From positions 41,587 to 105,586 of the forward strand of contig JARFRM010000224.1 of NCBI GenBank assembly GCA_029287235.1: a stretch of DNA of 64,000 bases. Direction: 5' to 3'. Below the pieces are notes generated by a model. It worked only from the letters and a program-made list of their open reading frames with translations. It was not told the DNA's origin and ran no database searches. Shown one piece after another: positions 48,323-64,000 of this stretch. This stretch comes from Thermoanaerobaculales bacterium. Lineage in GTDB: Bacteria; Acidobacteriota; Thermoanaerobaculia; Thermoanaerobaculales; Sulfomarinibacteraceae. How positions within the stretch are numbered: the first letter of the stretch is position 1; each line of letters begins with the position of its first letter. The position numbers and the translations under genes were made by a program.

Positions 48323-49693
48323 TCACTCGTCCTTGAGCTCGAACCGATGCACCATCTCGTTGAGGGTCGTCGGACTGAGCTGGAGCAGCCGCGCCGCCTT
48401 GCGCTGGACGCCGCCGGTCTGCTTGAGCGCCTGGCGGATCAGCTGCGCCTGGAAGGTCGCGACGGCGTAGCGGAAGTCCAGTCCCTCGGGCGGGATCTCG
48501 CTGATCGTCAGCTCGTCCCGGGACTCGACTCGAAGGGCCAGAGGCAGCTCGTCGAGCTCGACGGTCTCGCCGCGGCTCAGCACCACCGCCCGCTCGACAG
48601 CGTTCTCGAGTTCGCGCACGTTTCCCGGCCACGAGTAGTCGGTCAATGCATCGATGGCTTCGGGCGAAAAGCCAACCATTTCACGATTGTTCTCTTCGGT
48701 GTAGGTACCCAGGAAGTGGGAGACCAGCAGCGGGATGTCCTCGCGCCGATGGCGCAGGGGCGGCAAATCGATGGTGATGACGTTGAGCCGATAGTAAAGG
48801 TCTTCTCGGAATCGGCCGGCCTGGACCTCTCCCCAGAGGTCAACATTGGTCGCCGCCACCAACCGGACATCGACGGATCGCGCTTCCACCCCGCCGACTC
48901 TGCGAATCTCCCGTTCCTGGATCACTCGAAGAAGCTTGGTCTGGGTTTCCGGATTGATGGTGCCGACCTCATCGAGAAAGAGAGTGCCCTGATGGGCAGC
49001 CTCGAAGAGACCCTTTCGGCTCGATACCGCACCGGTGAAAGCGCCCTTGACGTGACCGAAGAGGGACGACTCGAGAAGCTCGGATGGAATGGCAGTGGTG
49101 TGTACCGGCACGAATGGCTCGTTGCTTCGCGGACTGAGACGGTGGATCGCCCGCGCCACCAATTCCTTGCCGGTGCCGCTTTCGCCGGTGATCAGGATAT
49201 TCGACCGGGCCGGCGCGGCTCGCCGAATGAGCTCGAAGACCTCCTGCATTCGGCGGCTGGTACCGACGATCTCTCCCATCCCCTCGAGCCGACTGCGCAG
49301 CTGGAGATTTTCCACCAGCAGTCGGCGCCGCTCCCACGCCCGTCGAACGAGATGGAGAACCTCTTCGTTTTTGAAGGGCTTGGGCACATAGTGGAAGGCG
49401 CCGAGCCGCATGGCCTCGATGGCCGATTCCACCGAAGAGTAGGCGGTGATGACCACCACCGGAAGGTGCGGGTCGTGGGTCTTGATCTCGGGCAGGATCT
49501 CGAGGCCCGAACGATCGGGAAGCATGAGGTCGAGCAGAACAACGTCGATCTCCTCGTCGCGGATCTGCTGCAATCCCTCTTTGGCCGACATGGCGCTGTT
49601 GACCTCGAAGCCGGCGCCACGCAGAAGGGTCCCGAGCACGTCCTGTAGGACGGGCTCGTCATCGATCACGAGGACGCTTCCGACTCCTTCCAT
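48323..49693 (-). CDS. NtrC-family sigma-54 response regulator
   Basis: 456 residues. Receiver 1-120 with D55 (VVLLDLMLPD), AAA+ domain about 140-375 with Walker A GESGTGKE, the sigma-54-contacting GAFTGA loop and Walker B LFLDEV, and a Fis-type HTH at the C-terminus (QRKAARLLQLSPTTLNEM). A normal, complete enhancer-binding activator. Its start overlaps the kinase gene by 28 bp, so the two form a pair. Confidence 0.96.
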   Translation of the reverse strand: MEGVGSVLVIDDEPVLQDVLGTLLRGAGFEVNSAMSAKEGLQQIRDEEIDVVLLDLMLPDRSGLEILPEIKTHDPHLPVVVITAYSSVESAIEAMRLGAFHYVPKPFKNEEVLHLVRRAWERRRLLVENLQLRSRLEGMGEIVGTSRRMQEVFELIRRAAPARSNILITGESGTGKELVARAIHRLSPRSNEPFVPVHTTAIPSELLESSLFGHVKGAFTGAVSSRKGLFEAAHQGTLFLDEVGTINPETQTKLLRVIQEREIRRVGGVEARSVDVRLVAATNVDLWGEVQAGRFREDLYYRLNVITIDLPPLRHRREDIPLLVSHFLGTYTEENNREMVGFSPEAIDALTDYSWPGNVRELENAVERAVVLSRGETVELDELPLALRVESRDELTISEIPPEGLDFRYAVATFQAQLIRQALKQTGGVQRKAARLLQLSPTTLNEMVHRFELKDE

Positions 49694-52338
49694 CGCTGCA
49701 GCCTCACGGTAGCACGCGCACCCCCACGTTCAAGGTTTTCGAGGCTGACCTGACCCCCGAGGTTGACGATCAGATCCCTTGAAATCGCCAGCCCCATGCC
49801 CGTCCCGCCACGATCGGTCTTGGTTGAGAAGAAGGGTTCGAAGACCCGCTTCAGAACCTCCTCGGCCACACCCGGGCCGCTGTCCTCGACAATGATCTCC
49901 GCCCAGTCGTCGCTTGCCTGAGCGGCGATCCGAACGCGGGCATGGGAGTCTGAAGCCTCGATGGCGTTTCGAACCAAGTTGCTCACCGCCAGCTCGATGG
50001 CCCCCGGGGCCCCCACTGCCATGACGGGGCGGCTGTCGACGATCTCGAGTCGATCCGTCGCACCGAGGGATCGGGCCGCTTCCAGGGCTGCGCTCCGAGC
50101 CACCATGGCGAGATCGATGACCGTCAGCTCTTCCCTTCCACCGCGGATGGCCTCTCTGAGATTCGCAACGATCCGGGACACCCGGAAACTCTGATCCACC
50201 AGCTTGGAAACCAGGGATGCCCTCGGATCTTCCTCGGGAGTCATCTCACCGAGCATCTGGGCAAACGATGATATTCCGGTCAGCGGAGTGTTGATCTCGT
50301 GGGCGAGTCCCGAGGCCAGGCGTCCGAGGGCGGCCATCCTCTCTTGATCCCGGATCCGATCCTGAAGCTCGCGCAGCTCAGTGACGTCCTGGAGCACCAC
50401 CACCCGTCCGTTGAAGCTTCCGCTGTCGAGCTCGAGCACCGAGACCGCCATGATCACCCGGCGGTGGGGAGGATCCTTGGTTTGCCCCTCGGCATTGGCC
50501 GCCTGCAGCGGGAGAGTGTCTCTCCACTCGTCGGGAAGCTCGACCAGGGTTTCCAGGGGCACCGAGACCAGATCCGGAGCGTTGACTTCGAAGATCCCGG
50601 CCGCCTCGCTGTTCGCCGACAGAATCCGCCCGGCGGCGTCGCACACCAGGATCGCCGCGGCTGACGACTCGATGATGCGCTGCGTGTTGGCATGCAGGAT
50701 TCTATACTCCTCCGCCTGCTGGCGAAGATCGTCGAGATAGCGCGCACTTTCCAGAGCCACCGCCGCCTGAGTGGTAAAGGCGCCAACGACTTCCTGTGCC
50801 TCGCTCCCGAGGGGAAAGAGTCCACGCCGCAGGCCAAGGTAGAGCAAGCCGTGCACCGTGTCCACGCGATCCAGGGTCAGCCGCAGGGTGTAACCGGCGA
50901 CGGCCAGTTGTTCCTCTTCGAAGCAGGGAAAATGATGCTCGAGAACGGTTTCGGGGAGGTGCTCCGGGAGATAGCCTCCTGACGAACTGACCCGAGAAAA
51001 GGCGCCATCGCCGACCCGCAGATAGGTCGCCACAACATCGAAATCGAGACCGTCGCGAAGAGTGTCGGCCAGTCGGCTGAGGAGTTCCCGTGGATCGGTG
51101 ACCTCGGCAAGCTCTCGCGTCGCATGGGTCAGCAGCCACTGGGGCGGACGGCGACCGTGGTAGAGCCAGTGTTCGAGAAAGTAGCCGACCCGGGTCCGGA
51201 TCGGCTGGAGCAGCACCACGAGCAGCACACCGGTGGCGAAGGCGAACAGGTTTCTCAACGAGCCGTAACCTCCGGCATAGTTGACCAGCAGATGGTTGGT
51301 CATGGCAAAAGCGAAACCACCGATCACCAGAACAAGGGTTGCGGAGAGCGCATCGCGGGCGATGGGCTCCAGATCCCACAGCCGGTACTCCATCAGCGCC
51401 GCCACCAGGGCGAGGGGAAGCGCCGCCATGGGCAGCACCATCATCCAAGAGAACGGATCGACCTCGATGCCAAGCTGCCGGGGAAGCCAAACCAGGGCCA
51501 ACCACGGCACCAGGCCGACAAAGAGCCCGAGGGCCGCCCATTCGATCTGGCGCCGGACCCGGGCATCGCGTGACGCCTGCCACCAACGCACGATGTGCAG
51601 GATGATCCCGCCGACGAGCGCAATCGAGAACGCCGCCCTCAGCATGGTGGTCACGACCGACCACCAACCTTCGGCATTGGGGGCGATGGCGGTCGACGCC
51701 GCTCCGGCCGCGGCGACCACTGTGACCAGGTCCAGAATCCAAGCGGATGCCCGACGTTCGGGGAAGATGAAGAAGAACCGGGCGATGAGGAAGGGGAGGA
51801 CCGCCCCCGCCATCCGGTGCAGAATCTGGAGATCCTCTCGAGACTGTGCAGTCCTGTTGGGGACCGCACCGAGCACGAACGAGGCCGCGGCGACGAGCAG
51901 CAGCACCGCGGCCTCTCGCCGCGACGTCTTCCAGACCACCACGAGGGCACAGATCAAACCGAGCAGGCCAATCGATGTGCGCGTGAGGTAGACCGGTTGG
52001 ATGACGGGCGGCGGTGGGTGGAATGCGACCTCGCGAATCTCTCCATCGGCGCCCTTGACCGCCAGCAGGTGTTGCTCACCGCCGGCGAGGAGGAAGGCGG
52101 GGTCTTCGAGTCGACTCACCTCGATACCGTCCACCGCCTCGATGACGTCGCCGGATCGCAGACCGGCCGCCGCGGCCGAAGACCCCGATGGCACCTCATC
52201 GACGACCATTCCCTGTTCGAGCCACCGGACCGGAAAATCCAGGCGATAGAAGCTGTGAACCGTTCTGATCAATGCCCAGCCGGCCACCACCATAATGGTC
52301 AGCGCAACGAGCGTGAGGACGAGACGACGGCCGAACAC
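49666..52338 (-). CDS. Multi-domain membrane histidine kinase with PDZ domain
   Basis: 890 residues, GTG start. Order: TM about 7-27; PDZ about 45-105 (VPSGSSAAAAGLRSGDVIEAVDGI); six to seven TM helices about 115-390; GAF about 410-545; PAS about 560-660; HisKA with His in LAHEINTPLTG (about 680); HATPase with NLVRNAIEA, DSGPGV and GGTGMGLAIS. The extracytoplasmic PDZ would sense exposed protein C-termini or a protease partner. This kinase class feeds a sigma-54 regulator, here the overlapping downstream gene. Confidence 0.93.
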   Translation of the reverse strand: MFGRRLVLTLVALTIMVVAGWALIRTVHSFYRLDFPVRWLEQGMVVDEVPSGSSAAAAGLRSGDVIEAVDGIEVSRLEDPAFLLAGGEQHLLAVKGADGEIREVAFHPPPPVIQPVYLTRTSIGLLGLICALVVVWKTSRREAAVLLLVAAASFVLGAVPNRTAQSREDLQILHRMAGAVLPFLIARFFFIFPERRASAWILDLVTVVAAAGAASTAIAPNAEGWWSVVTTMLRAAFSIALVGGIILHIVRWWQASRDARVRRQIEWAALGLFVGLVPWLALVWLPRQLGIEVDPFSWMMVLPMAALPLALVAALMEYRLWDLEPIARDALSATLVLVIGGFAFAMTNHLLVNYAGGYGSLRNLFAFATGVLLVVLLQPIRTRVGYFLEHWLYHGRRPPQWLLTHATRELAEVTDPRELLSRLADTLRDGLDFDVVATYLRVGDGAFSRVSSSGGYLPEHLPETVLEHHFPCFEEEQLAVAGYTLRLTLDRVDTVHGLLYLGLRRGLFPLGSEAQEVVGAFTTQAAVALESARYLDDLRQQAEEYRILHANTQRIIESSAAAILVCDAAGRILSANSEAAGIFEVNAPDLVSVPLETLVELPDEWRDTLPLQAANAEGQTKDPPHRRVIMAVSVLELDSGSFNGRVVVLQDVTELRELQDRIRDQERMAALGRLASGLAHEINTPLTGISSFAQMLGEMTPEEDPRASLVSKLVDQSFRVSRIVANLREAIRGGREELTVIDLAMVARSAALEAARSLGATDRLEIVDSRPVMAVGAPGAIELAVSNLVRNAIEASDSHARVRIAAQASDDWAEIIVEDSGPGVAEEVLKRVFEPFFSTKTDRGGTGMGLAISRDLIVNLGGQVSLENLERGGARATVRLQRWKESEASS

Positions 52339-52497: not shown

Positions 52498-53526
52498 TCA
52501 GAATTCGAGCGCGTCAGCTCCACTGATCCTGTAGTTGGTATCAGTCTCGAGGACCCCGGCAAGGAGCAACTCCCGCACCATGATTGCCACTCGCCCCCTG
52601 CTGTAGGGAAGTCCTTCGGCAACGGCCCCCCAACCCGATGGCCGGGTCTTGACCTGCTCCAGGACCATCCTGGAAAGCCGGTCGTTCTCCCCGGGCAATC
52701 GTCCCGTGTGGTGCAAGATCGCCCCCTGAGGAACTTCGCTGGAAAACCTCTTGAACTCGTCCTGGATCCGGACCGCTTCGAAGAGCAGCGGCTGCAGGTG
52801 GTAGGAATCCTCGGTTTCCTGGCGTGTTCCGGTCGTTGAGAAACGGAACGTCCCTCCCTGGGGGGGCGAGACCATGATCTCGACGAAGGCTTCCTCACCG
52901 AACAGGGTCCCACAGAGAATGGGCCCGACCCGGCGGTTCCTGGTGTAGATGGCTCCGAAGGTGTCGCCCTCCTTGTCGCGGATCTCGACCACACCGTTCG
53001 ACCCTGATTCAACGACGGTCTGCAGAATGGTGGGCAGATCGAAGTGATCGATCATCCCGCCGAGGTTGCCGCTGCCGCGAGAATCGAGACTCGCAAAGGT
53101 CCCCTCCAGGCGCCGCGCGATGTTCTGAAGGTAGTGGAGGCTGAAGTCTCTCGATTCGTAAACCATGCGCAGGATCACGGGACGCGGCCACTGCATGGTG
53201 GCCCCACCCTCCGGGAATCGTGCTTCACTTCTGAGCGCAGTACCGGTAATCACCTTACTTTCGCCGAGCACCGTGCCGGGCCCGACGTAGGCCACCGGCT
53301 TCATACCATCGCCGTCCTCGATCTCACGACAGATCTCCACCACCCCTTCGAGGACCAGATAAAGTGCAGTCGCCCGCTGTTTCGGCTCGAAGATCAGCTC
53401 GCCACTGGTGTGAATCACAACCCGACCATGGGCCGCCAGGGTCTCTCGGACGTCGGGGACCATGGCCTTGAAAAACGGGCTGTCTGTAATTGCCCTGAGG
53501 AGCTCCTGCTGACGCATATGCATCAT
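52498..53526 (-). CDS. Cyclic-nucleotide-binding domain plus DUF4388 (PATAN-like) protein
   Basis: About 342 residues; several ATGs close together make the exact start uncertain (53517-53556). Residues about 10-135 are a CRP-type cNMP-binding domain (LYLVLEGVVEI, VLGESKVITGTALRSEARF, containing the GE and R-S of the phosphate cassette). About 160-270 is DUF4388/PATAN (FDLPTILQTVVESGSNGVVEIRDKEG, GAIYTRNRRVG). The C-terminus has a possible winged-helix segment. No CRP-type HTH. Divergent, 72 bp apart, from a cyclase-like gene, which suggests a cNMP-responsive effector. Confidence 0.8.
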   Translation of the reverse strand: MMHMRQQELLRAITDSPFFKAMVPDVRETLAAHGRVVIHTSGELIFEPKQRATALYLVLEGVVEICREIEDGDGMKPVAYVGPGTVLGESKVITGTALRSEARFPEGGATMQWPRPVILRMVYESRDFSLHYLQNIARRLEGTFASLDSRGSGNLGGMIDHFDLPTILQTVVESGSNGVVEIRDKEGDTFGAIYTRNRRVGPILCGTLFGEEAFVEIMVSPPQGGTFRFSTTGTRQETEDSYHLQPLLFEAVRIQDEFKRFSSEVPQGAILHHTGRLPGENDRLSRMVLEQVKTRPSGWGAVAEGLPYSRGRVAIMVRELLLAGVLETDTNYRISGADALEF

Positions 53527-53598
53527 TATCCCACTAACGCTGGACATTACAATCACCCACCGCGTAATTCTTCCGACGATCTTCGCTAGAATTGATGG

Positions 53599-55929
53599 GT
53601 GGAACCGACTCCAGACGCCAGAATCTTTCAGCTTGTCCTCACCGACGAGCTCCGTCGTCCCCTGGTTCTCACTTCCGACGAGATTGTCGGCGGCTGGAGA
53701 GATCTCTTCCCCAATCTCGCCGCATGTCTGCCGACTCCGTACCCGATCTTCGGCTCCGATGAGGAAAAAGTCGTCACATACGGCTACCCGATACTACGCT
53801 CGGACGGGCTTCGTCAGCTCCAACGCAACCTCGATCAGTTGGTCAACGCCGAGGTCGAGTACCGCCACGCGTTCGAGTTCGACCAGGCGGCGAACAAGCG
53901 CGGCGTCATGGTCGAAAGGGACCGCCTGCACCGGTCGCTGTCGCTGATCCTTGAAAACGTCTTCATGAACGACTACGGACGAGGCATGGCGGAGGTCTTT
54001 CTGCTCCTCCTCTCCTCCGAGGTCGTCCGGGCAGTGTCCAGGGTCCCCAAGTTGGTGCGGATGACCGACCGCATGTCTGCCGAGGGGGCCGGAACCCGCC
54101 ACCAACAGGCCGTCGCAGGGGTGCTCGGCGGTCTGATCCAGCGCGCCGCTCATGGCGCCTCAGACCGCCTCCGCAAGCTTGCCCAGATCCGACTCGCACC
54201 CAAGATCTCACCACTGCTCGGAATGATCTGTTCCGACCAGTTGCTCCTCACCGAACCACGACCAACGGTGCAGATGGCTTCTCTGGACAACTATCTGAAG
54301 ACACGATTCCGGTACGATCTCGCGACCCTCAACGCGACCTTGGAGCACGCCATCGGTCGCCTCAGTCAACTCATGGCGCGGCAATCAGCCCTCGGCGAAC
54401 TTCTGGCCTCGGCCGCGGGGATCAACATCGACCTCACCAGACCGTGGACACTCCTCGAACCCCGACTCCTCAAAGCTCTCGTAACGGCTGATCTCCTGGA
54501 CTCCATCGGGATGTCCAAGGCTCAGGCGTCGTTGTGTCGCGATCTCGGGCTCAACCTCAAGCGCTTCGAGCTCCTGTCCGCCCTTCGCCGCCGAATCGTC
54601 TTCATGGCCCGCAGCGGTAACCAGCTCGTGCTCACCGAGCCATCGATGCGCGGCACCATCGCACCGACCACTCGCCCCTTCGACTTCACCGCCCCGGGGG
54701 TTGTGGACACCTCGGTTCGGCGGTTCGGACTCGTCTATGACCTCACCAACTTCACCGCCATTTTGGAAGAGGTGAGAAAGAAGGGACGACTCTCCGAGGA
54801 GAAAGCGCTCCAGTTCATGTACGTCTTTCAGAACCGGCTCGAGGAGATCCGACACGACCACCGGTTGATCTTCGAGAAGTTTCTCGGCGACGGCGCGTTC
54901 TATTCGTCACGGCGGGCCCTACGGGTCCTTGCCGCTGCATGTGAGATCCAACAGGCGTACGATCGCTTGCGCCGAAGCGGCTTTCCCTTCGACCAGGGAA
55001 TTCGCATGGCCCTGAACCATGGCGTCTATCGCTTGCTGCCCATGCTCGACACCGATCGCGATATCCGCCGATTCGAGTTCTTCGGTCACGGAATCGTCGA
55101 ACTCTCGAGACTGACCACCGGCAAGAGCTCCCGCGAGGTCGCCGAAATCGCAGAGTTTCTGATTCACGCGGGGTATGACCCGTCGGAGGTCGAGAATTTC
55201 CTCGCGCCGATCGCCTCGGCCAGAAGGGCCGACAGGTCATCCGACGACCGTCGATATACGGCCTCCCTCGACAGCCACGGCGAGCTTGTGAACGAGGGAA
55301 TGGTGCTCACCCTGGATTTTCTCGAACACCTCGAGCAGGAGCTCAAGGTCCAGTCGTTCACCGAGGTCTCCGAGCACGGTGTTCGCTGGCTCCTCTTCCC
55401 CCTCGATCCGGATCGGCCGGGCCCGTTCCAGGTCGGCCTCCGCTACCTTGGGGTTGCCAGGCTCAAGGGACTCACCCCCATGGAGCTCGTCGAGGCGGCG
55501 GTGTGGACCGAGATCCCGGCCGAGGCACAGGTCATCTCGGAGGGATCGTCTCTCCTCGCCCTTCTCCGGCGACTGGGGCAGGGTCCGGACGAATCCCCGA
55601 ATATCGACGGCAGCGTCCCTCCGACTATCGACGAGGACCTCGTCGTTCTCACCTACCTCGAAGCCGACGGCACTCGATCATGGGTCTTCGGTTGCCACCG
55701 CGCCAGCGATGATGTGCTTCTCCAGGCCATCCAGATGCCCATGCAGATTCCGACCCTGACCGACGACGAACCGGTGGAGACCTGGTTGTTTCGCAACCGG
55801 TTCGAGCTCGAGCGGCTGTATCTCGGCGTCCGACGGACCGATGGCGGTACGACCATGCCCGTCTCCCCACTCCGGAAGCGAAACGGCTATGTCGGGTGCT
55901 TCCTCTCCGCGCCGCACAAGGCCCCATAA
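53599..55929 (+). CDS. Cytoplasmic protein with class III nucleotide-cyclase-like domain
   Basis: 776 residues, GTG start with TAGAAT about 10 bp upstream. Residues 1-360 are helical and unrecognised. About 375-510 resembles a class III adenylate/guanylate cyclase: VYDLTNFTAILEE carries the first metal Asp (D381), FEKFLGDGAF the second (D431) and an adenine-type Lys (K427), and FFGHGIVELSRL aligns with GxxVNxAxRL, keeping Arg but having Val in place of the transition-state Asn. The C-terminal 200 residues are unassigned. No TM. Either a divergent active cyclase or a nucleotide-binding pseudo-cyclase. Confidence 0.65.
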   Translation: MEPTPDARIFQLVLTDELRRPLVLTSDEIVGGWRDLFPNLAACLPTPYPIFGSDEEKVVTYGYPILRSDGLRQLQRNLDQLVNAEVEYRHAFEFDQAANKRGVMVERDRLHRSLSLILENVFMNDYGRGMAEVFLLLLSSEVVRAVSRVPKLVRMTDRMSAEGAGTRHQQAVAGVLGGLIQRAAHGASDRLRKLAQIRLAPKISPLLGMICSDQLLLTEPRPTVQMASLDNYLKTRFRYDLATLNATLEHAIGRLSQLMARQSALGELLASAAGINIDLTRPWTLLEPRLLKALVTADLLDSIGMSKAQASLCRDLGLNLKRFELLSALRRRIVFMARSGNQLVLTEPSMRGTIAPTTRPFDFTAPGVVDTSVRRFGLVYDLTNFTAILEEVRKKGRLSEEKALQFMYVFQNRLEEIRHDHRLIFEKFLGDGAFYSSRRALRVLAAACEIQQAYDRLRRSGFPFDQGIRMALNHGVYRLLPMLDTDRDIRRFEFFGHGIVELSRLTTGKSSREVAEIAEFLIHAGYDPSEVENFLAPIASARRADRSSDDRRYTASLDSHGELVNEGMVLTLDFLEHLEQELKVQSFTEVSEHGVRWLLFPLDPDRPGPFQVGLRYLGVARLKGLTPMELVEAAVWTEIPAEAQVISEGSSLLALLRRLGQGPDESPNIDGSVPPTIDEDLVVLTYLEADGTRSWVFGCHRASDDVLLQAIQMPMQIPTLTDDEPVETWLFRNRFELERLYLGVRRTDGGTTMPVSPLRKRNGYVGCFLSAPHKAP

Positions 55930-55975: not shown

Positions 55976-56875
55976 TCAGTCGTCCTGATCGCGGATTTTC
56001 AAGTAACTCGCGAATCGCACAGCGTCGATGATGCCGTCTTCGACGGCGGCGCGGACCGCACAGTCGGGTTCGTGGACGTGACTGCAATCGGAGAATCGGC
56101 AGCCTGGAACCTCGGCGGCGATCTCCGGGAAGGCCAGGGCGAGATCCGCGTCGGATGCGTCGAACACTCCGAACTCCTTGAGTCCCGGCGTGTCCACCAC
56201 AAAACCACCGTAGGGAAGCGGCATGAGTTCGGCCCGGGTGGTGGTGTGCCGCCCCTTTCCAGTGGCGTCGGAAATTGAACCCACCTTGAGTCGAAAACCC
56301 GGGTAGACCGAGTTGAGAAGCGATGATTTTCCGGCACCCGACGGCCCGCAGAACAGGGTCGTCTTCCCCACCAATCGTCGCTTGACCCGACCCAACCCCC
56401 ACCCTGTTCTCGCCGACACCCGGAGCACCTCATACCCGAGATCTTCGTAGATCGGCAACCATTGATCGATCTCGTCCATGCCGAGATCGATCTTGTTGAC
56501 GGTAATGATCGCCTCGATCTCGGCGGTATGGCATGCGGCAAGGAAACGGTCGAGCAGACCACGTTTGGGCTCGGGCCGGCTCGAGGCGAAGACCAACAGA
56601 GCCTGGTCCACGTTCGCCGCGAGGAGTTGAGGACGGCCGCTGTGCGGAGCGGCCCGACAGAGGGAGTTCTCGCGCGCTCCCACCGACACGACGACCCCGT
56701 CTTCCGCACTCATCTCGGCGGTGACGCGATCACCGACCACTAGACGTGCCGATCGTGGTATGCCGCCCACCCAATTGAGGCGGCGTCGCGACGCCATGAC
56801 CAACGTACGATCACCGATCTGCACCCGCACAAGCGGGCCGTGCACGGCGATGACGGTCCCTTCAACCTGTTTCAC
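55976..56875 (-). CDS. rsgA: Ribosome small-subunit-dependent GTPase RsgA
   Basis: 299 residues from a GTG that overlaps the upstream stop (GTGA); the ORF-track start is too early. OB fold first, then the circularly permuted GTPase order: G4 VNKIDLG, G5 SARTG, G1 GPSGAGKSSLLN, G2 HTTTRAEL, G3 DTPG. The C-terminal zinc site is CRFSDCSHVHEPDC. Matures the 30S subunit. Coupled to the DUF3857 genes. Confidence 0.95.
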   Translation of the reverse strand: MKQVEGTVIAVHGPLVRVQIGDRTLVMASRRRLNWVGGIPRSARLVVGDRVTAEMSAEDGVVVSVGARENSLCRAAPHSGRPQLLAANVDQALLVFASSRPEPKRGLLDRFLAACHTAEIEAIITVNKIDLGMDEIDQWLPIYEDLGYEVLRVSARTGWGLGRVKRRLVGKTTLFCGPSGAGKSSLLNSVYPGFRLKVGSISDATGKGRHTTTRAELMPLPYGGFVVDTPGLKEFGVFDASDADLALAFPEIAAEVPGCRFSDCSHVHEPDCAVRAAVEDGIIDAVRFASYLKIRDQDD

Positions 56876-59800
56876 GAGCCAGGAGTATACGTGTTTCCGC
56901 TCTCGGGGAAGAGAACCGGAGGACGCGAGTTTAACTCGTCCACCGCGTGGCAAAAGCGAGCGAACTCGGGATAGTCATCGGGCGCCACGGTCTGGGCCGG
57001 AAGCTCGAGCCTGAGAATCGATCGATGACGCCGCCCCTCGCGATCGACGGTTTCGACCACCGACCCCCATCTGGTCTCGAGTCGCCGCGGGCGATAATCG
57101 ATGGTCCAACCCTCAGGCGCCTCGATGACGAGCTCGTTTCGCTGTATGACCGGCACCGGCATGATCAGCGGATAACGGCGTGTCGGCAACGCCGCAAGGA
57201 CTGGGAGGAGTGGTTTGGTGAACACCAGAGACCGGCACACCATGGAATCGCCTTCGGCGCGACACGCACCGGGTGCCCGCATCAAGAGCTCGAGCTCGAT
57301 TCCGTCATCCACCCGATCGATCGCCCCCACAACGTCGGAGGCGGATGGGAAGAAATTCGCCGCCATCTGCTGGTAGACCATGGACACCCGCTCGGTAGGC
57401 ACGCTGCGGATCTGCTCCACCACCCGTTCCGCCTGGGGACCACGAATGTGGAGCGTGATGGTGAGTCGGGCGTCTCCCGTCTCATCCACCACCGCCACCA
57501 CCTTCATCTCCTCCTCGAGATCGGGGTTGGGATAGGTGGGAAGCTCGTCGAGGATCGCCACCGGTTCCCCGGGACGGCTCAACGGCACCACAAGGCCGTC
57601 ACTGCCCTGGAGGATCGGTCTGATTCGACCGATCCCCCGCCGTTCCTCCTCGAGATCGAGCCAGAGTTCCTGCCCGTCCAGCTCGACCCGCAACAGGGGC
57701 AGATAGAACGAATCGAAGGTCGGCACCAAGAGGTGGGTTCCGGCAAAAGGACGTGTTCGGGTCATGACCAGGTCGACCTCCCACCCGGCTTCGAGCAGAG
57801 CCGCTGCGGTAATCCCGAGGCGATTCCCCCGCTTGCGCGAGAAGCTGCTGCCGGCGCTTTCCGAGAAATCCAGCACCTCTCGGCCCGGCTCGATTTCGTC
57901 GATGACGGCGTTGACCAACGTCGTCACTGCGACCTCGGGCGGTTTCGAGGTGAGAAGATCTGCACTCCAGGTCCTGAGCTCGGATGTCGCCACCAGCATG
58001 GGAAGGAGCCGATCACGCATGGCGTCGCCGACGTCTTCCCAGGTCACGTTGAAGGCATAGCTCACCCAAGGAAGAAGCTCGCTGGTCGGGGGTGCGAAGC
58101 GCTCCTCCGGAATCGGCGGGACACTCTCGGCACGCCACCGGATCGCCCGCAAACCGTCTACGATCCACTCGGTGCGCTCGAGACCCTCGAGGTTTCCCTC
58201 CACGAGGAGATCGAGCTCCGGTGGTGCGAGCAGCAGGTACTCCGACAGCCCGAAGGCGCGTTCCGGGTCAGCGAATCGGTAGATGTAGGGTGGCATGTGA
58301 CCACGCCGGGACGCGCCCGTCGCCGCCACCCTCGCCACGTACTCCTCGTCCACGAAATCGCCCGGCTCGACACCCTCGAGCTCGACCGGACCACCCCCGT
58401 TCCCGATCTCGGCGGGAACCACCACGGATCCGTCGGGTTTGTGGATCCTGACCTTGAGTCGGTGGGAGTTGGGAAGCTGTTGGAGGCGGGACGCCTGCCG
58501 GGCGCCCACCGGGGTCAAGGCCCGCGTCACACCGTGGTAGTAGTAGAGGCTGGAGCCGTCGTCAAAGACCCTCTCCACCGCCTGGTCGAGGAGGAGGACC
58601 GCATCGACCCCCTCGGGCGTTTCATCGACTCGGGCTCTGACATCGTTCAACGACAGCCTGAAGGGTGCATAGAAGGGAACCTCACCCCGCCGCCAGGCCA
58701 GACTCAGGAGTTCAATGGATGACGGCATTCGTTCGAGAGCCTCCTCCATGGCGCGGGCGTTGGCCTCCCGATTCCCGGCGGTGATGGCCAGGTTCAGCTC
58801 GTCCACCACCCGCAGCGAGCCCCAGCGGCGCCGCAGCGATTCGAGCTCGGCAGCAGCCGCCTCAAGCTCTCCCGCCGTGTACAGCAAATGCACCAGCTCG
58901 ACATCGAGGCCGGGATCCTCCGCCCGTTCCCGGAGGCGCCGGATCAACTCCACCGCGTCTGCAACCAGACAACCGGAGGCCAGCTCATCGACAAAAGTCA
59001 GATCCAACGGTTCGGTGACGGCCAGCGCCCGAAGCAGCCGCTGACGCTCCTGCCAACGCTCCAAGGCTTCCAGGACCTCGAGCTCCACCTCCGCCGCCCC
59101 ACGTGATCCCGGCAAGAGCGCGTGGAGCTTTCGCAGACCCTCTTCCGCTTCGCGAACCCAACCACGCCCCAGGGCTTCACGAATCCACAAACGGAGCACC
59201 CGAACGTCATCGGGATGATCATCCACCAGGGTCTCGAGAATGCGTTCGTTGTCCTCCTCGCGCCTCTCTCTCAGGGCGAGGCCGCGCTCCAAGAGAAGAG
59301 ATAGGGGAATCTCGGCGGCGCGACGAAGCTGTTCCCGCGCGCGGCGACGGAGGGCCTCGCCGTCGTCGTCGGTCGGCGCCATCATCCAGTACCAGGCAAG
59401 AGCGAGTCGCGGCCAAGGGCTGCCGGAATCAACCTCGATCGCGCGCTCGATGTACGACCGCCAGCGGACGGGATCGCGACGGTGCTCACCGAGGGTCGCC
59501 GCCAGAAGCAACTCGCTGACACTGCCACCGCTCTCGAGTCGCGTCATGAAATCGCTGATAGCCGGAGGCTCCTGTTCGCTGACCTCGGATGCTGCCCAGG
59601 AACCGTCAACGACGGGGTCGGCCACGGCCGGCGTCACCGCCTGTCCGTCCGCTCCGTAGAAACTGACCCTCAGCTCGGGTCGGCCCCTCGATGCCATATC
59701 GGCCCGCACCCGATGCATGCCGGGAGCGAGGCGGACTCGATACCAGATGATCTCGGCATCACTGCGGCCACAGAATCGGCGTCGATCCGCCGGCCGACCA

Positions 59801-60417
59801 TCGACCGCCAGATCGTAGCTTCCGGCGGCCTCCACCGCCATCCAACCATCCAGTATCCGGTCGAGTCGGATCGTCCACAGCACCGTGAAGACGCCACGCG
59901 CCGTCATCACATCGGGTGGTGCGATGATTCCGTCGAGAGTGGTGACGGTCATCCGAAACGGAACCCAGGTTTCGGTGAAAAGCGTATTGGGCGGCGGCAG
60001 CCCAGCGTCGGGCGGAGCGACCCCGCGATCGAGATCGAGGGTGTCGAATACCCCGAAGGGCCCGATGAGCTCGGCCGAAGTCAGTACGCCGGACGGCGCC
60101 CGGCCGTTGAGCTCGGCCTCGATTCGAGCCAGCAGAAAACCGAGCTCCGGATCACGTGCGTCTCCGGCTGCAGTCAGGATCTCCTCGGGGTCGGGGAGGT
60201 TTCCGATCTGGCGCAACCACCACCCGACCGCCGCGACCGAATCTGCGCTGGTGGGGTCGGCGGCCACCGTCTCCAGGGCGGCCCGGCGGGCGGCGGGCAG
60301 ATCGAAGACGGCATCCGCCCGGTGCACCGTCCACCAGTCGGCGGCGGTCACCGAGGTCGCGAGGCAGGCGGACCCGATCCAGAGCACGAATGCCAGGGTG
60401 GATAGACGGCTGCTCAT
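56872..60417 (-). CDS. DUF3857/transglutaminase-like exported protein lacking the catalytic Cys
   Basis: 1181 residues, signal peptide ending SVTAA. N-terminal TPR-like helices and a beta domain, then DUF3857 (about 610-780, with RLKVRIHKPDGSVV), then a transglutaminase-like region near 855-900. There FSRKRGNRLGITAALLEAGW stands where active relatives have GDCKDxAxLLxALL, so the catalytic Cys is absent. Followed by a C-terminal DUF3858-like beta domain. Overlaps the upstream paralogue by 4 bp (ATGA). Probably a non-catalytic partner of that paralogue. Confidence 0.8.
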   Translation of the reverse strand: MSSRLSTLAFVLWIGSACLATSVTAADWWTVHRADAVFDLPAARRAALETVAADPTSADSVAAVGWWLRQIGNLPDPEEILTAAGDARDPELGFLLARIEAELNGRAPSGVLTSAELIGPFGVFDTLDLDRGVAPPDAGLPPPNTLFTETWVPFRMTVTTLDGIIAPPDVMTARGVFTVLWTIRLDRILDGWMAVEAAGSYDLAVDGRPADRRRFCGRSDAEIIWYRVRLAPGMHRVRADMASRGRPELRVSFYGADGQAVTPAVADPVVDGSWAASEVSEQEPPAISDFMTRLESGGSVSELLLAATLGEHRRDPVRWRSYIERAIEVDSGSPWPRLALAWYWMMAPTDDDGEALRRRAREQLRRAAEIPLSLLLERGLALRERREEDNERILETLVDDHPDDVRVLRLWIREALGRGWVREAEEGLRKLHALLPGSRGAAEVELEVLEALERWQERQRLLRALAVTEPLDLTFVDELASGCLVADAVELIRRLRERAEDPGLDVELVHLLYTAGELEAAAAELESLRRRWGSLRVVDELNLAITAGNREANARAMEEALERMPSSIELLSLAWRRGEVPFYAPFRLSLNDVRARVDETPEGVDAVLLLDQAVERVFDDGSSLYYYHGVTRALTPVGARQASRLQQLPNSHRLKVRIHKPDGSVVVPAEIGNGGGPVELEGVEPGDFVDEEYVARVAATGASRRGHMPPYIYRFADPERAFGLSEYLLLAPPELDLLVEGNLEGLERTEWIVDGLRAIRWRAESVPPIPEERFAPPTSELLPWVSYAFNVTWEDVGDAMRDRLLPMLVATSELRTWSADLLTSKPPEVAVTTLVNAVIDEIEPGREVLDFSESAGSSFSRKRGNRLGITAAALLEAGWEVDLVMTRTRPFAGTHLLVPTFDSFYLPLLRVELDGQELWLDLEEERRGIGRIRPILQGSDGLVVPLSRPGEPVAILDELPTYPNPDLEEEMKVVAVVDETGDARLTITLHIRGPQAERVVEQIRSVPTERVSMVYQQMAANFFPSASDVVGAIDRVDDGIELELLMRAPGACRAEGDSMVCRSLVFTKPLLPVLAALPTRRYPLIMPVPVIQRNELVIEAPEGWTIDYRPRRLETRWGSVVETVDREGRRHRSILRLELPAQTVAPDDYPEFARFCHAVDELNSRPPVLFPESGNTYTPGS

Positions 60418-63400
60418 GGGGTTTCCAGGGGACGGCTCAGGATGCGCTTGACCTCGAGAAGGAACTCACGCAACTCGGGTGCCCGATGGGCTTCGACCAG
60501 CCCGGTCTCCAGGTGGAAATAGCCGTTGACGCGATAGCCCTTCTCTTCGGGCTCGATGGACAGCTTCAGGAAGCCGAAATCACCCGCCAGCGAAACGTTC
60601 TCGGTTTCCGTCGAAGGCCGTCGCCCCAGCGACACCTCGAGGGTCCACTCGAAATCCGGGCGGACCGCCACCAGCAGCGGCCCGGAGCGGTTCGCGGTGG
60701 GGACCACTCGGCCCGCGAGGTCAAAGGTGCCGGGGTAGGTTGCGATCCCACCGCGGCTCTCCAGCGCGGTCCTTGGAACCACCGCCTTCAGCTCGATGAC
60801 CGCGGGGTCACGTGATGGAACGAGCCGATACTTGGGCTCCGTCGTCAGCTCGGCACCTGGATACGAGTTTTGCAGCCAGGTCGCGAACAGACGTTGGTCC
60901 CGGCTGCCGGCGAAGCGATTGCGGAGCCGGTCGGCCGCCCCGCCACTGGCCTCGACACGGACATCGAGGGCAACGAACCCGTCCCGGTGCTCACCGAGGG
61001 CGACCGCGGTCTGCAACAAACCAACGCCGGCGACGGGGGTGACCTGAGGCCGGCTGTCGGGCCCGTCCACCACCAGAACCGTGGCGCCCTGATCCATCCC
61101 GGGCGGCGGCAGGATGGCATGACCCACCGCCGTCCCATCGAGCCAGAGGTCGTCGTCGGGAAGATAGGCGATGGCGTGATTGAAGACCTCGAGCAACGCC
61201 ATCTCACCCACCACGGGCCCGAGATCGGCGGTTCGCACCATGACCATTCGCGCCGGAATGTCGACGGCGTCGAAGAGGGCCACCAGAAGCGCCGCGGTGT
61301 CCTTGCAATCACCGATGCCCTGATTGAGAACCCAGTCCGCGGAAAACGGTCGGAAACGATGCTCGCCGAACTCGAGCCCAACATATCGGATCTCGTTGGT
61401 CACGTATGTGTAGATTCGCGATATCCTCTCGATCCGGTCATCGACGCCGTCGGTGAGGCGTCCGGCCAACTCCTCGATCTGCCGGGAGGTACGCACCCGA
61501 GGGGCCACGTGCCTCGCATACCAGCTGCCGAGCTCGCCCCAATCCGGGTGGGTCGAGTAGCTGAGGTACCGCCCCCGCGAGAAGGGTGGCGCCGGTGGTA
61601 CGTCGAGCGGCACCCGTTCGAGGTCGCGCCACGTCCAGGTGAGCCGTTCGAGCCCCTCGGAATCGATCTGCCGAACGGGTTCGCCTTCGAGATTGATGAG
61701 CTCCCACGCCGGCAACGAGTCCTTCGGGCCCACCAGCTGAACCTCGGCAAGAGCCGTCGGGACCGTCCGTCCCAGACCGATCAGGCCACCGTCGTAGGGG
61801 CCGGTCTCGTTGCTTTCGATGGTCTCGGTCAGGACATAGGCGATCTCGATGAGATCGCCGTCGGCAAGCTCGGGAAAATCGAGCACCCGCAAACGGGTGT
61901 CGTAATAAAGGTTGAACTCTGGTTCGGCAAGCCGCGGGGTGTCTCCCTGCCGGGCACTCAGCTCGGATCCGTCGCGTCGCAGTATCCGGGCCCTGAGCAC
62001 CCGCAACCGTTGACTCTCGGACACGTAGGGCAGCGTGTGACGACGAAGACCGTCGGCCCGTTCGGCCGAGGTGACGAGGGTGACCTGCTGAACCTTCTCC
62101 TCGGTGAGCTGCGATGGCAGAAAGTGGACCTCGACATGGTCGAGCACGGCGACGGCCGGGTCACCGTCAGGCGCGGCATCGGTCATCCGCCACAGCTCTT
62201 CCACCGGGCGCAACCAGCCGAGATCCTCGGTCTCCCCACCGAGCAGCTCGACGAGACGCCGGGCGCGCTGGTCCTGCGGCCGAAGAACCAGAACCTCTCG
62301 GCTCAGTTGCAGGGCGCGATCATCCGCCCCCGCCGAGTGCTCGACGCGGGCGAGCTCCATCAGAAGATCGATGTCCGAAGGAGATCGCCGCAGCCCCTCC
62401 TCGAGTCGCACCCGTGCCCCATCGACATCGCCGACACCGCTCAGAAGGCGGACCAGCCGCAGCCGCAGCCGAGAGTCGTTCGGGTCGGTCTCGAGACCCT
62501 CGGTGAAGAGCTCGAGCAGGGTGCCACCATCGTTGCAGGACTCGGCGAGTCGCTCTCGAAGCTCGACCACCGCCGCCGAGGTCGGGATTGTCTGTTCGAG
62601 TTGTGCGAGGACCTCACCGGCGAGATCCGTGCGGCGAGCATCGAGGGCCCGATGGGCCGCCGCAAGACCCACCGCCTCACAGGCCGGGTAACGGCGGGCG
62701 AGCTCCACCATCTCGGGGAGCAACACGATCCCCCACATCTCCGAGTCGATGTCGAGGGCGACGGCCCTGGCCGCCGGTTCGGTGATCACCGGTTCGAGCA
62801 CGGTCGCCGCCTCATCGAAGAGTCCACGTTCGGCGTACCACGCGGCGAGCTCAATTCGCGCCCAGACAAGGTCCGTTTCGGCCTCGACAGCGTCCCGAAG
62901 CAACTCGTGGACCAGATCCTGGTCAACGGTCAGGAGCCACTCGAGGAGGCGCGCTTCGGCCGGAGCCTCGGTGCGCGCAGATCGGCACGCCAACCGTGCT
63001 CCGCCGGCGCCCACCGCCTGGGGTCGTCGCAGCACCAAATAGGCCGCCAGCGCCACTGTCGCCTCGTCTCGGCCCGCCCGAACCGCCTTTCGAATCTCGC
63101 TCTCCAGGTCCCTGATCTCGGGCGGATCACGGCTTTCGACGGTGCCGGACGAAGGTTCCGAGGCGGACTCACGAACATCTTCGAGCGCCTCTCCGTCAGG
63201 TGCGGTCAATCGAACCCTGAGCCACCAGTCATCGGTTTCGCTCGCCACCGCAACAATCACGGTGTTGGCACCGGGGCGCAGCCAACCACCCACCGACGCC
63301 TGATCCTCCGCTCGCTCGAGGGGGCGGGGAGTCGTCAGAACCTCTCGGCCGTTGAGCCACACCCGCGCGGCCTGCGCGGCGCCGATTCGAATGGCCACCG

Positions 63401-63938
63401 CCTGCTCCCGTTCCGCGGTCACGGTTGTGGCCAGATACACGAGCTGGCGTTGCGCCGGCCACGCGAGCCCGGAGAGTCGGACCCAACCCATGGGGTCGGT
63501 GCCCGGCGCCGAGCGCCAGGTTCCACCGGCCGGAAGCCTGGCCAGATCGTCAAAGTCCGCCAACTCACCAATAGAGATCGGCCCCTGGACCCACCACTGG
63601 GAGAGGCCGCCCATCGCCCGGAAGAGCTCCCGCGCGGCCGCCGGCCTCCCCGATTCCGCCGCCAGACGCGCCCTCATCCCTCGAAGCTCGTCGCTCATCA
63701 GCGGATCCACCCGAGGGGCGGCGGCAAGACGGTCGAGCCCACGTTCAACCACCCCGGAATCCGAAACGGTGTCCCGCCAGAAAAAGGCGAAGACGAGGTG
63801 GTGGAAGTCGTCTGGCTGGACACCATTTGCCATCGCCCGGTCCACGTGACCGAGGATCCGTTGCTCGATCTCACTCGCCGAGGTGGCGGCTGGAATCAAG
63901 GTCAGGGCAAGTACGGCGGCGGCGAAACGACCGACCAT
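60414..63938 (-). CDS. DUF3857 plus transglutaminase-like exported protein, catalytic residues intact
   Basis: About 1174 residues from the ATG that gives a signal peptide (MVGRFAAAVLALTLIP); an in-frame GTG at 63998 near the window edge is possible. Long helical TPR-like N-terminus, DUF3857 (about 600-760), then a transglutaminase core with Cys in GIGDCKDTAALL (about 878), His in FNHAIAYL and Asp in LWLDGTA. Such proteins are periplasmic; activity is unproven in the family. It overlaps the degenerate paralogue. Confidence 0.85.
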   Translation of the reverse strand: MVGRFAAAVLALTLIPAATSASEIEQRILGHVDRAMANGVQPDDFHHLVFAFFWRDTVSDSGVVERGLDRLAAAPRVDPLMSDELRGMRARLAAESGRPAAARELFRAMGGLSQWWVQGPISIGELADFDDLARLPAGGTWRSAPGTDPMGWVRLSGLAWPAQRQLVYLATTVTAEREQAVAIRIGAAQAARVWLNGREVLTTPRPLERAEDQASVGGWLRPGANTVIVAVASETDDWWLRVRLTAPDGEALEDVRESASEPSSGTVESRDPPEIRDLESEIRKAVRAGRDEATVALAAYLVLRRPQAVGAGGARLACRSARTEAPAEARLLEWLLTVDQDLVHELLRDAVEAETDLVWARIELAAWYAERGLFDEAATVLEPVITEPAARAVALDIDSEMWGIVLLPEMVELARRYPACEAVGLAAAHRALDARRTDLAGEVLAQLEQTIPTSAAVVELRERLAESCNDGGTLLELFTEGLETDPNDSRLRLRLVRLLSGVGDVDGARVRLEEGLRRSPSDIDLLMELARVEHSAGADDRALQLSREVLVLRPQDQRARRLVELLGGETEDLGWLRPVEELWRMTDAAPDGDPAVAVLDHVEVHFLPSQLTEEKVQQVTLVTSAERADGLRRHTLPYVSESQRLRVLRARILRRDGSELSARQGDTPRLAEPEFNLYYDTRLRVLDFPELADGDLIEIAYVLTETIESNETGPYDGGLIGLGRTVPTALAEVQLVGPKDSLPAWELINLEGEPVRQIDSEGLERLTWTWRDLERVPLDVPPAPPFSRGRYLSYSTHPDWGELGSWYARHVAPRVRTSRQIEELAGRLTDGVDDRIERISRIYTYVTNEIRYVGLEFGEHRFRPFSADWVLNQGIGDCKDTAALLVALFDAVDIPARMVMVRTADLGPVVGEMALLEVFNHAIAYLPDDDLWLDGTAVGHAILPPPGMDQGATVLVVDGPDSRPQVTPVAGVGLLQTAVALGEHRDGFVALDVRVEASGGAADRLRNRFAGSRDQRLFATWLQNSYPGAELTTEPKYRLVPSRDPAVIELKAVVPRTALESRGGIATYPGTFDLAGRVVPTANRSGPLLVAVRPDFEWTLEVSLGRRPSTETENVSLAGDFGFLKLSIEPEEKGYRVNGYFHLETGLVEAHRAPELREFLLEVKRILSRPLETP

Positions 63939-64000
63939 GGAGGTGGATGTGCCGCCGAGGCACCGGAAGGTACAGCGAGGGTTCGTCAGAATGCGCACCG

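Follow-up and report, generated by a model that had tools for sequence, protein, structure and literature searches.

The window, that is, the whole stretch of 64,000 nucleotides that was analysed, contains two genes transcribed divergently from neighbouring starts. Judging by its named relatives, the genome it comes from belongs to the class Thermoanaerobaculia of the Acidobacteriota. The larger one (53599..55929, + strand) begins with a GTG codon and codes for a class III cyclase-like protein of 776 aa, a member of a family conserved across that class; the open reading frame is real and placed as in the original prediction. The second gene lies on the - strand within an ORF spanning 52498-53556 and codes for a CNB-DUF4388 protein (52498..53517, -). 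The distance of 72 bp first given between the two starts holds if the latter gene begins at 53526, whereas the starts of its orthologues favour ATG 53517 and a distance of 81 bp. Its product was described as a nucleotide-binding domain joined to DUF4388 without the CRP-type HTH, and Pfam bears this out: both the cNMP_binding domain (53209..53406, -; E 2.3e-9) and DUF4388 (52756..53058, -; E 1.4e-6) are recognised, and the CRP-type HTH model gives no match. The phosphate-binding Arg position of the CNB, located in the orthologue alignment, is occupied by Arg here (53230..53232, -). In line with the CNB gene, as found from Pfam and gene context, lie a gene for a PDZ-PAS-HisKA-HATPase sensor kinase (49666..52338, -) and, overlapping it, one for an NtrC-type response regulator (48323..49693, -).

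Several other features of the window and its genome are worth mentioning. The C-terminus of the CNB protein (52501-52660, -; GWGxLAExLPySRGxxALxVRDxLLAGVL) appears winged-helix-like by eye, no model having matched it. DUF4388 is abundant in the window's genome (17 matches), whereas only one canonical PF00211 cyclase is present there (L107), whose N-terminus was judged by eye to be FHA-GAF-like. On the other side of the locus (56872-63998, -) are encoded two adjacent proteins of about 1,180 and 1,190 residues which, as judged by eye, comprise repeat-like N-terminal and transglutaminase-like parts, are conserved in relatives, and are there situated beside rsgA.

The cyclase-like protein begins with an N-terminal region (residues 1-364; 53599..54690, +), mostly helical in a low-confidence model and closed by a conserved LKRFELLsALRR segment (residues 320-332). 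Next comes the cyclase-like catalytic segment (residues 371-510; 54709..55128, +), delimited by hhalign against canonical class III domains and by a joint alignment with them. The original prediction let the cyclase domain end at about residue 510, but the family and joint alignments place there an insertion inside the domain (residues 511-560; 55129..55278, +), past which the joint alignment locates the actual last strands (residues 561-640; 55279..55518, +) with a VNEGIV-type motif and an LKGL motif containing K623. The C-terminal part of some 200 residues, said to match nothing, is thereby divided: residues 561-640 are cyclase strands, and only the extra part formed by residues 641-776 (55519..55926, +) in the alignment of 45 homologues stays unmatched; it is missing or short in most families other than f1, f2, f7, and f9. 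The N-terminal region of about 360 residues had likewise been held to match nothing, but it is common to the homologues of the class and, as judged by one full-length profile alignment, extends to f53, another family of the phylum, in a relative whose core is canonical. Altogether, we read the protein as a soluble cyclase-like enzyme that probably binds NTP and may be active, below a conserved helical N-terminal domain.

The active-site positions were identified in the homologue alignment and, with one exception, in the joint alignment as well. The first metal aspartate, D381 (54739..54741, +), and the base-contact lysine, K427 (54877..54879, +), are present in 45/45 homologues, while the second metal aspartate, D431 (54889..54891, +), the transition-state arginine, R504 (55108..55110, +), and K623, aligned to the Lys of the canonical LKG motif (55465..55467, +), occur in 44/45 each. 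At the second base-contact position, Asp or Thr in canonical enzymes, the family has Glu in 44/45 (E493; 55075..55077, +), and at that of the transition-state Asn it has Val in 44/45 and Thr in 1/45, never Asn (V500; 55096..55098, +). The adjacent E501 (55099..55101, +; homologue alignment only) is family-specific, invariant in 45/45, and forms with G508 and K509 a set of near-invariant, family-specific residues beside the active site. D381, K427, D431, E493, V500, R504, and K623 are paired in the joint alignment with canonical D, K, D, T, N, R, and K, respectively. Both metal aspartates, the Lys, the Arg, and the Val in place of Asn, all read earlier from this sequence, are thus confirmed in 44-45 of the 45 homologues. 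Moreover, of the 276 core positions, 42 are conserved in 44/45 or more, and D381, K427, D431, E493, R504, and K623 are all among these, a clustering whose chance is about 9e-6 if positions are taken as independent draws and shared ancestry is ignored. In one strongly diverged homologue, L072, D431, R504, K509, and K623 are lost together, as would be expected if they served one reaction. This 568-residue protein (L072 3394-5100, genome G038), devoid of the second metal Asp, the Arg, and both lysines, is a candidate pseudo-enzyme.

The kinship of the family to class III cyclases emerges at the level of profiles. Pfam, NCBIfam, and PDB sequence models (HMMER) returned nothing relevant for the single protein, nor did Pfam and PDB for the 45-member family, PF00211 being unmatched. 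In contrast, when the family core (residues 365-640) was compared by hhalign with 28 canonical class III domains, drawn from the same phylum and extracted by BLAST, the probability was 96.4 (E 1.2e-9), against 0.1-0.4% for the reversed, column-shuffled, and N-terminal controls; the profile check proposed earlier for residues 370-510 had a positive outcome in this comparison. The full-length family profile aligned with L104 (genome G347, family f53) with a probability of 99.1 (E 4.2e-19), the N-terminal stretch of this alignment being of low identity and represented by one profile alignment and a weak direct profile match. The core of L104 carries Lys, Thr, Asn, and Arg as canonical cyclases do, and the protein itself matches PF00211 (E 2e-9) and solved adenylate cyclases, thereby bridging the family to the class III cyclases. 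AlphaFold, given only seven sequences, modelled the whole protein and residues 362-640 with a mean pLDDT of about 48, and at such low confidence the class III fold assignment rests on sequence profiles. On these grounds, the comparisons show the protein to be homologous to the class III catalytic domain. Since the transition-state Asn, a defining residue, is absent, it is named class III cyclase-like and not counted among the class III cyclases; the likeliest reading is that it works as they do.

Of 149 Thermoanaerobaculia genomes, 105 carry a homologue of the cyclase-like protein, almost always in a single copy. Two long matches each were found in genomes G067 and G071, and in the latter, of family f7, the second, diverged copy lies at 7899-10130 of L074. 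The gene was not found in the many genomes of g22 or in the sampled genomes of f5, f10, and f11, also when searched with the family profile, and viral contigs yielded no relatives; genes in the relatives were called by a simple codon score and not by a gene finder. The tree of 45 homologues tracks the host families, with the members of f1 together and those of f2 together, which fits an old vertical inheritance of the gene. The f53 relatives fall outside the 45 homologues with full support, the root being placed for drawing only. The transition-state Asn is absent from all 45 family members examined and present in these relatives, so its loss, as the tree indicates, probably predates the radiation of the class. 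From its sequences the family is an undescribed, vertically inherited subfamily, an offshoot of the class III cyclases.

The CNB-DUF4388 gene has a much narrower distribution. Of the order's 37 genomes, 9 carry a full-length orthologue, and these belong to the genera g1, g3, and g5; in eight of the nine the gene adjoins that of the cyclase-like protein, and in G019 both lie near contig ends. The cyclase-like genes from the CNB-bearing genomes form one nested clade of the tree (96/95). In CNB proteins which bind cNMP, the Arg contacting the cyclic phosphate is highly conserved (PMC11224242), but in eight orthologues this position reads R/K/K/N/N/T/N/S, a variability that makes a conserved cNMP-receptor role unlikely. 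In the window's copy the phosphate-binding positions are occupied by Glu, Arg, and Ser, and this copy may still have a cNMP role. The sensor kinase is found in 35 of the 37 genomes, usually away from the cyclase-like gene; in G003, where no full-length CNB orthologue was detected, the kinase adjoins it. Judging from these distributions, the CNB-DUF4388 protein is probably a clade-specific recent arrival and not a dedicated receptor of the cyclase. Its gene would have been acquired once, in a subclade, and would more likely serve the adjoining kinase/NtrC-type system.

Two other genes, which we take to be purC and comM from reading the neighbouring sequences, no database match standing behind the names, are longer-lived neighbours of the cyclase-like gene than is the CNB gene. 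The former lies directly downstream and in the same direction in all 18 loci where it was found, its possible starts ranging from a 4 bp overlap with the cyclase-like gene to a gap of roughly 230 bp. In f2 and in part of f1, the latter lies upstream and is likewise co-directional. This arrangement suggests co-transcription.

Class III enzymes work as dimers, and from what is known of them we infer the substrate, the reaction, and the oligomeric form of the cyclase-like protein. It would act as a dimer, with D381 and D431 binding two metal ions, K427 and E493 recognising the base (a purine, most likely adenine), and R504 and K623 contacting the phosphates. The reaction would probably be a 3',5'-cyclisation of an NTP, slower or otherwise stabilised owing to the replacement of Asn by Val, and the N-terminal region would control catalysis through the LKRFELLsALRR segment. 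We incline, if only slightly, towards a soluble class III-related subfamily which probably cyclises an NTP and does so independently of its CNB-DUF4388 neighbour.

The same residues could also belong to a pseudo-cyclase, binding NTP and metal without cyclisation and acting as a sensor that switches the N-terminal region or a partner. The change of Asn to Val in 44/45, the near-invariance of the family-specific E501, G508, and K509, and the gene's alignment in direction with purC or comM rather than with a cNMP effector all speak for it; nevertheless, nothing in the protein is more tightly constrained than the metal aspartates and phosphate ligands, more so than binding alone would usually require, and several established cyclases lack the transition-state Asn according to the authors of the DUF2652 study (PMC4886424). 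Such a role is possible, though we consider it clearly less probable than catalysis. The Val-Glu pair occupying the place of Asn, with E501 invariant in the family and absent from canonical relatives, would moreover suit some other nucleotidyl or phosphoryl transfer with E501 or E493 taking part in the chemistry; positive evidence for this is lacking and the remaining ligands all match class III, which makes it the least probable of the readings considered.

The original prediction favoured a self-contained second-messenger circuit in which the CNB-DUF4388 neighbour would respond to a cNMP produced by the cyclase. The two genes are indeed adjacent and divergent in the genomes of g1, g3, and g5 where both are visible, and the phosphate-binding residues of the window's CNB copy agree with such a role. 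The expected co-occurrence of the two genes in relatives largely fails, since 105 genomes of the class have the cyclase-like gene and only 9 a full-length CNB orthologue; besides, the phosphate Arg varies, the CNB gene is in line with the kinase and regulator, and in G003 the kinase alone adjoins the cyclase-like gene. A dedicated circuit has thus become improbable. A broader proposal, somewhat more doubtful than the pseudo-cyclase, is that of a class-wide undescribed enzyme family with a class III fold, the Val-Glu pair instead of Asn, a cyclic or other nucleotide messenger with a receptor to read it, and possibly a tie to purine supply through co-expressed purC.

Whichever activity the preferred NTP-cyclising enzyme or its alternatives would have, the family is unrecognised by the libraries searched, yet kept by most genomes of an environmental class of Acidobacteriota. 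It is a natural test case for whether the transition-state Asn is dispensable to a class III cyclase when all else is conserved, and the full-length f53 relative, which retains Asn, serves as the comparison. The locus also illustrates that the adjacency of cyclase-like and CNB genes can be recent and misleading.

Among known systems, Pycsar likewise has a cyclase-like gene (PycC) beside one for a CNB effector. It was rejected as a counterpart: there is no match to the PycC model, and the neighbour has DUF4388, no TIR or TM, and no conserved phosphate Arg; the match of the PycTIR model to the neighbour is weak and confined to the CNB. The CNB-DUF4388 protein shares with CRP/FNR-type CNB and DUF4388 proteins the CNB fold and DUF4388, and differs from the former in having no match to the CRP HTH and an unconserved cNMP-phosphate Arg.

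The metal Asp, Lys, Asp, Gly, and Arg motifs of the family come in the same order and at the same intervals as those of the class III cyclases (PF00211), with which it also shares the final LKGL strand; Val for Asn, Glu at the second base position, and the insertion before the last strands set the family apart. The solved structures nearest to L104 are 2w01, 6fht, 3r5g (CyaB), and 1wc0/1wc1. The f53 relatives (L104, L105, and L126; 587-599 aa) align from end to end, N-terminal region, NEGI, and G.A.FKG segments included, but have Thr and Asn as in canonical enzymes (VIGRNVNLAGRL) and lack both an invariant E501 and the extra C-terminal part.

Membership in DUF2652 (PF10851) was considered and rejected, there being no PF10851 match and a score of 0.6% in a profile comparison with three members, a weak test in which the same three sequences scored only 2.7% against canonical cyclases. 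One DUF2652 cyclase-like domain, with Glu at the first metal position, shares an open frame with a C-terminal part resembling a methyltransferase (L190 1171-2685). DUF2652 proteins, for which cyclase activity was proposed by their authors on computational grounds, are much shorter than the 776-aa protein; they share with it the two aspartates, the Lys-Glu pair, an aliphatic residue at the Asn position, and the Arg (PMC4886424). As a signature, Lys/Glu/no-Asn/Arg already has a precedent in DUF2652, and what the present comparison adds is a previously undescribed, Asn-less class III-like family conserved class-wide.
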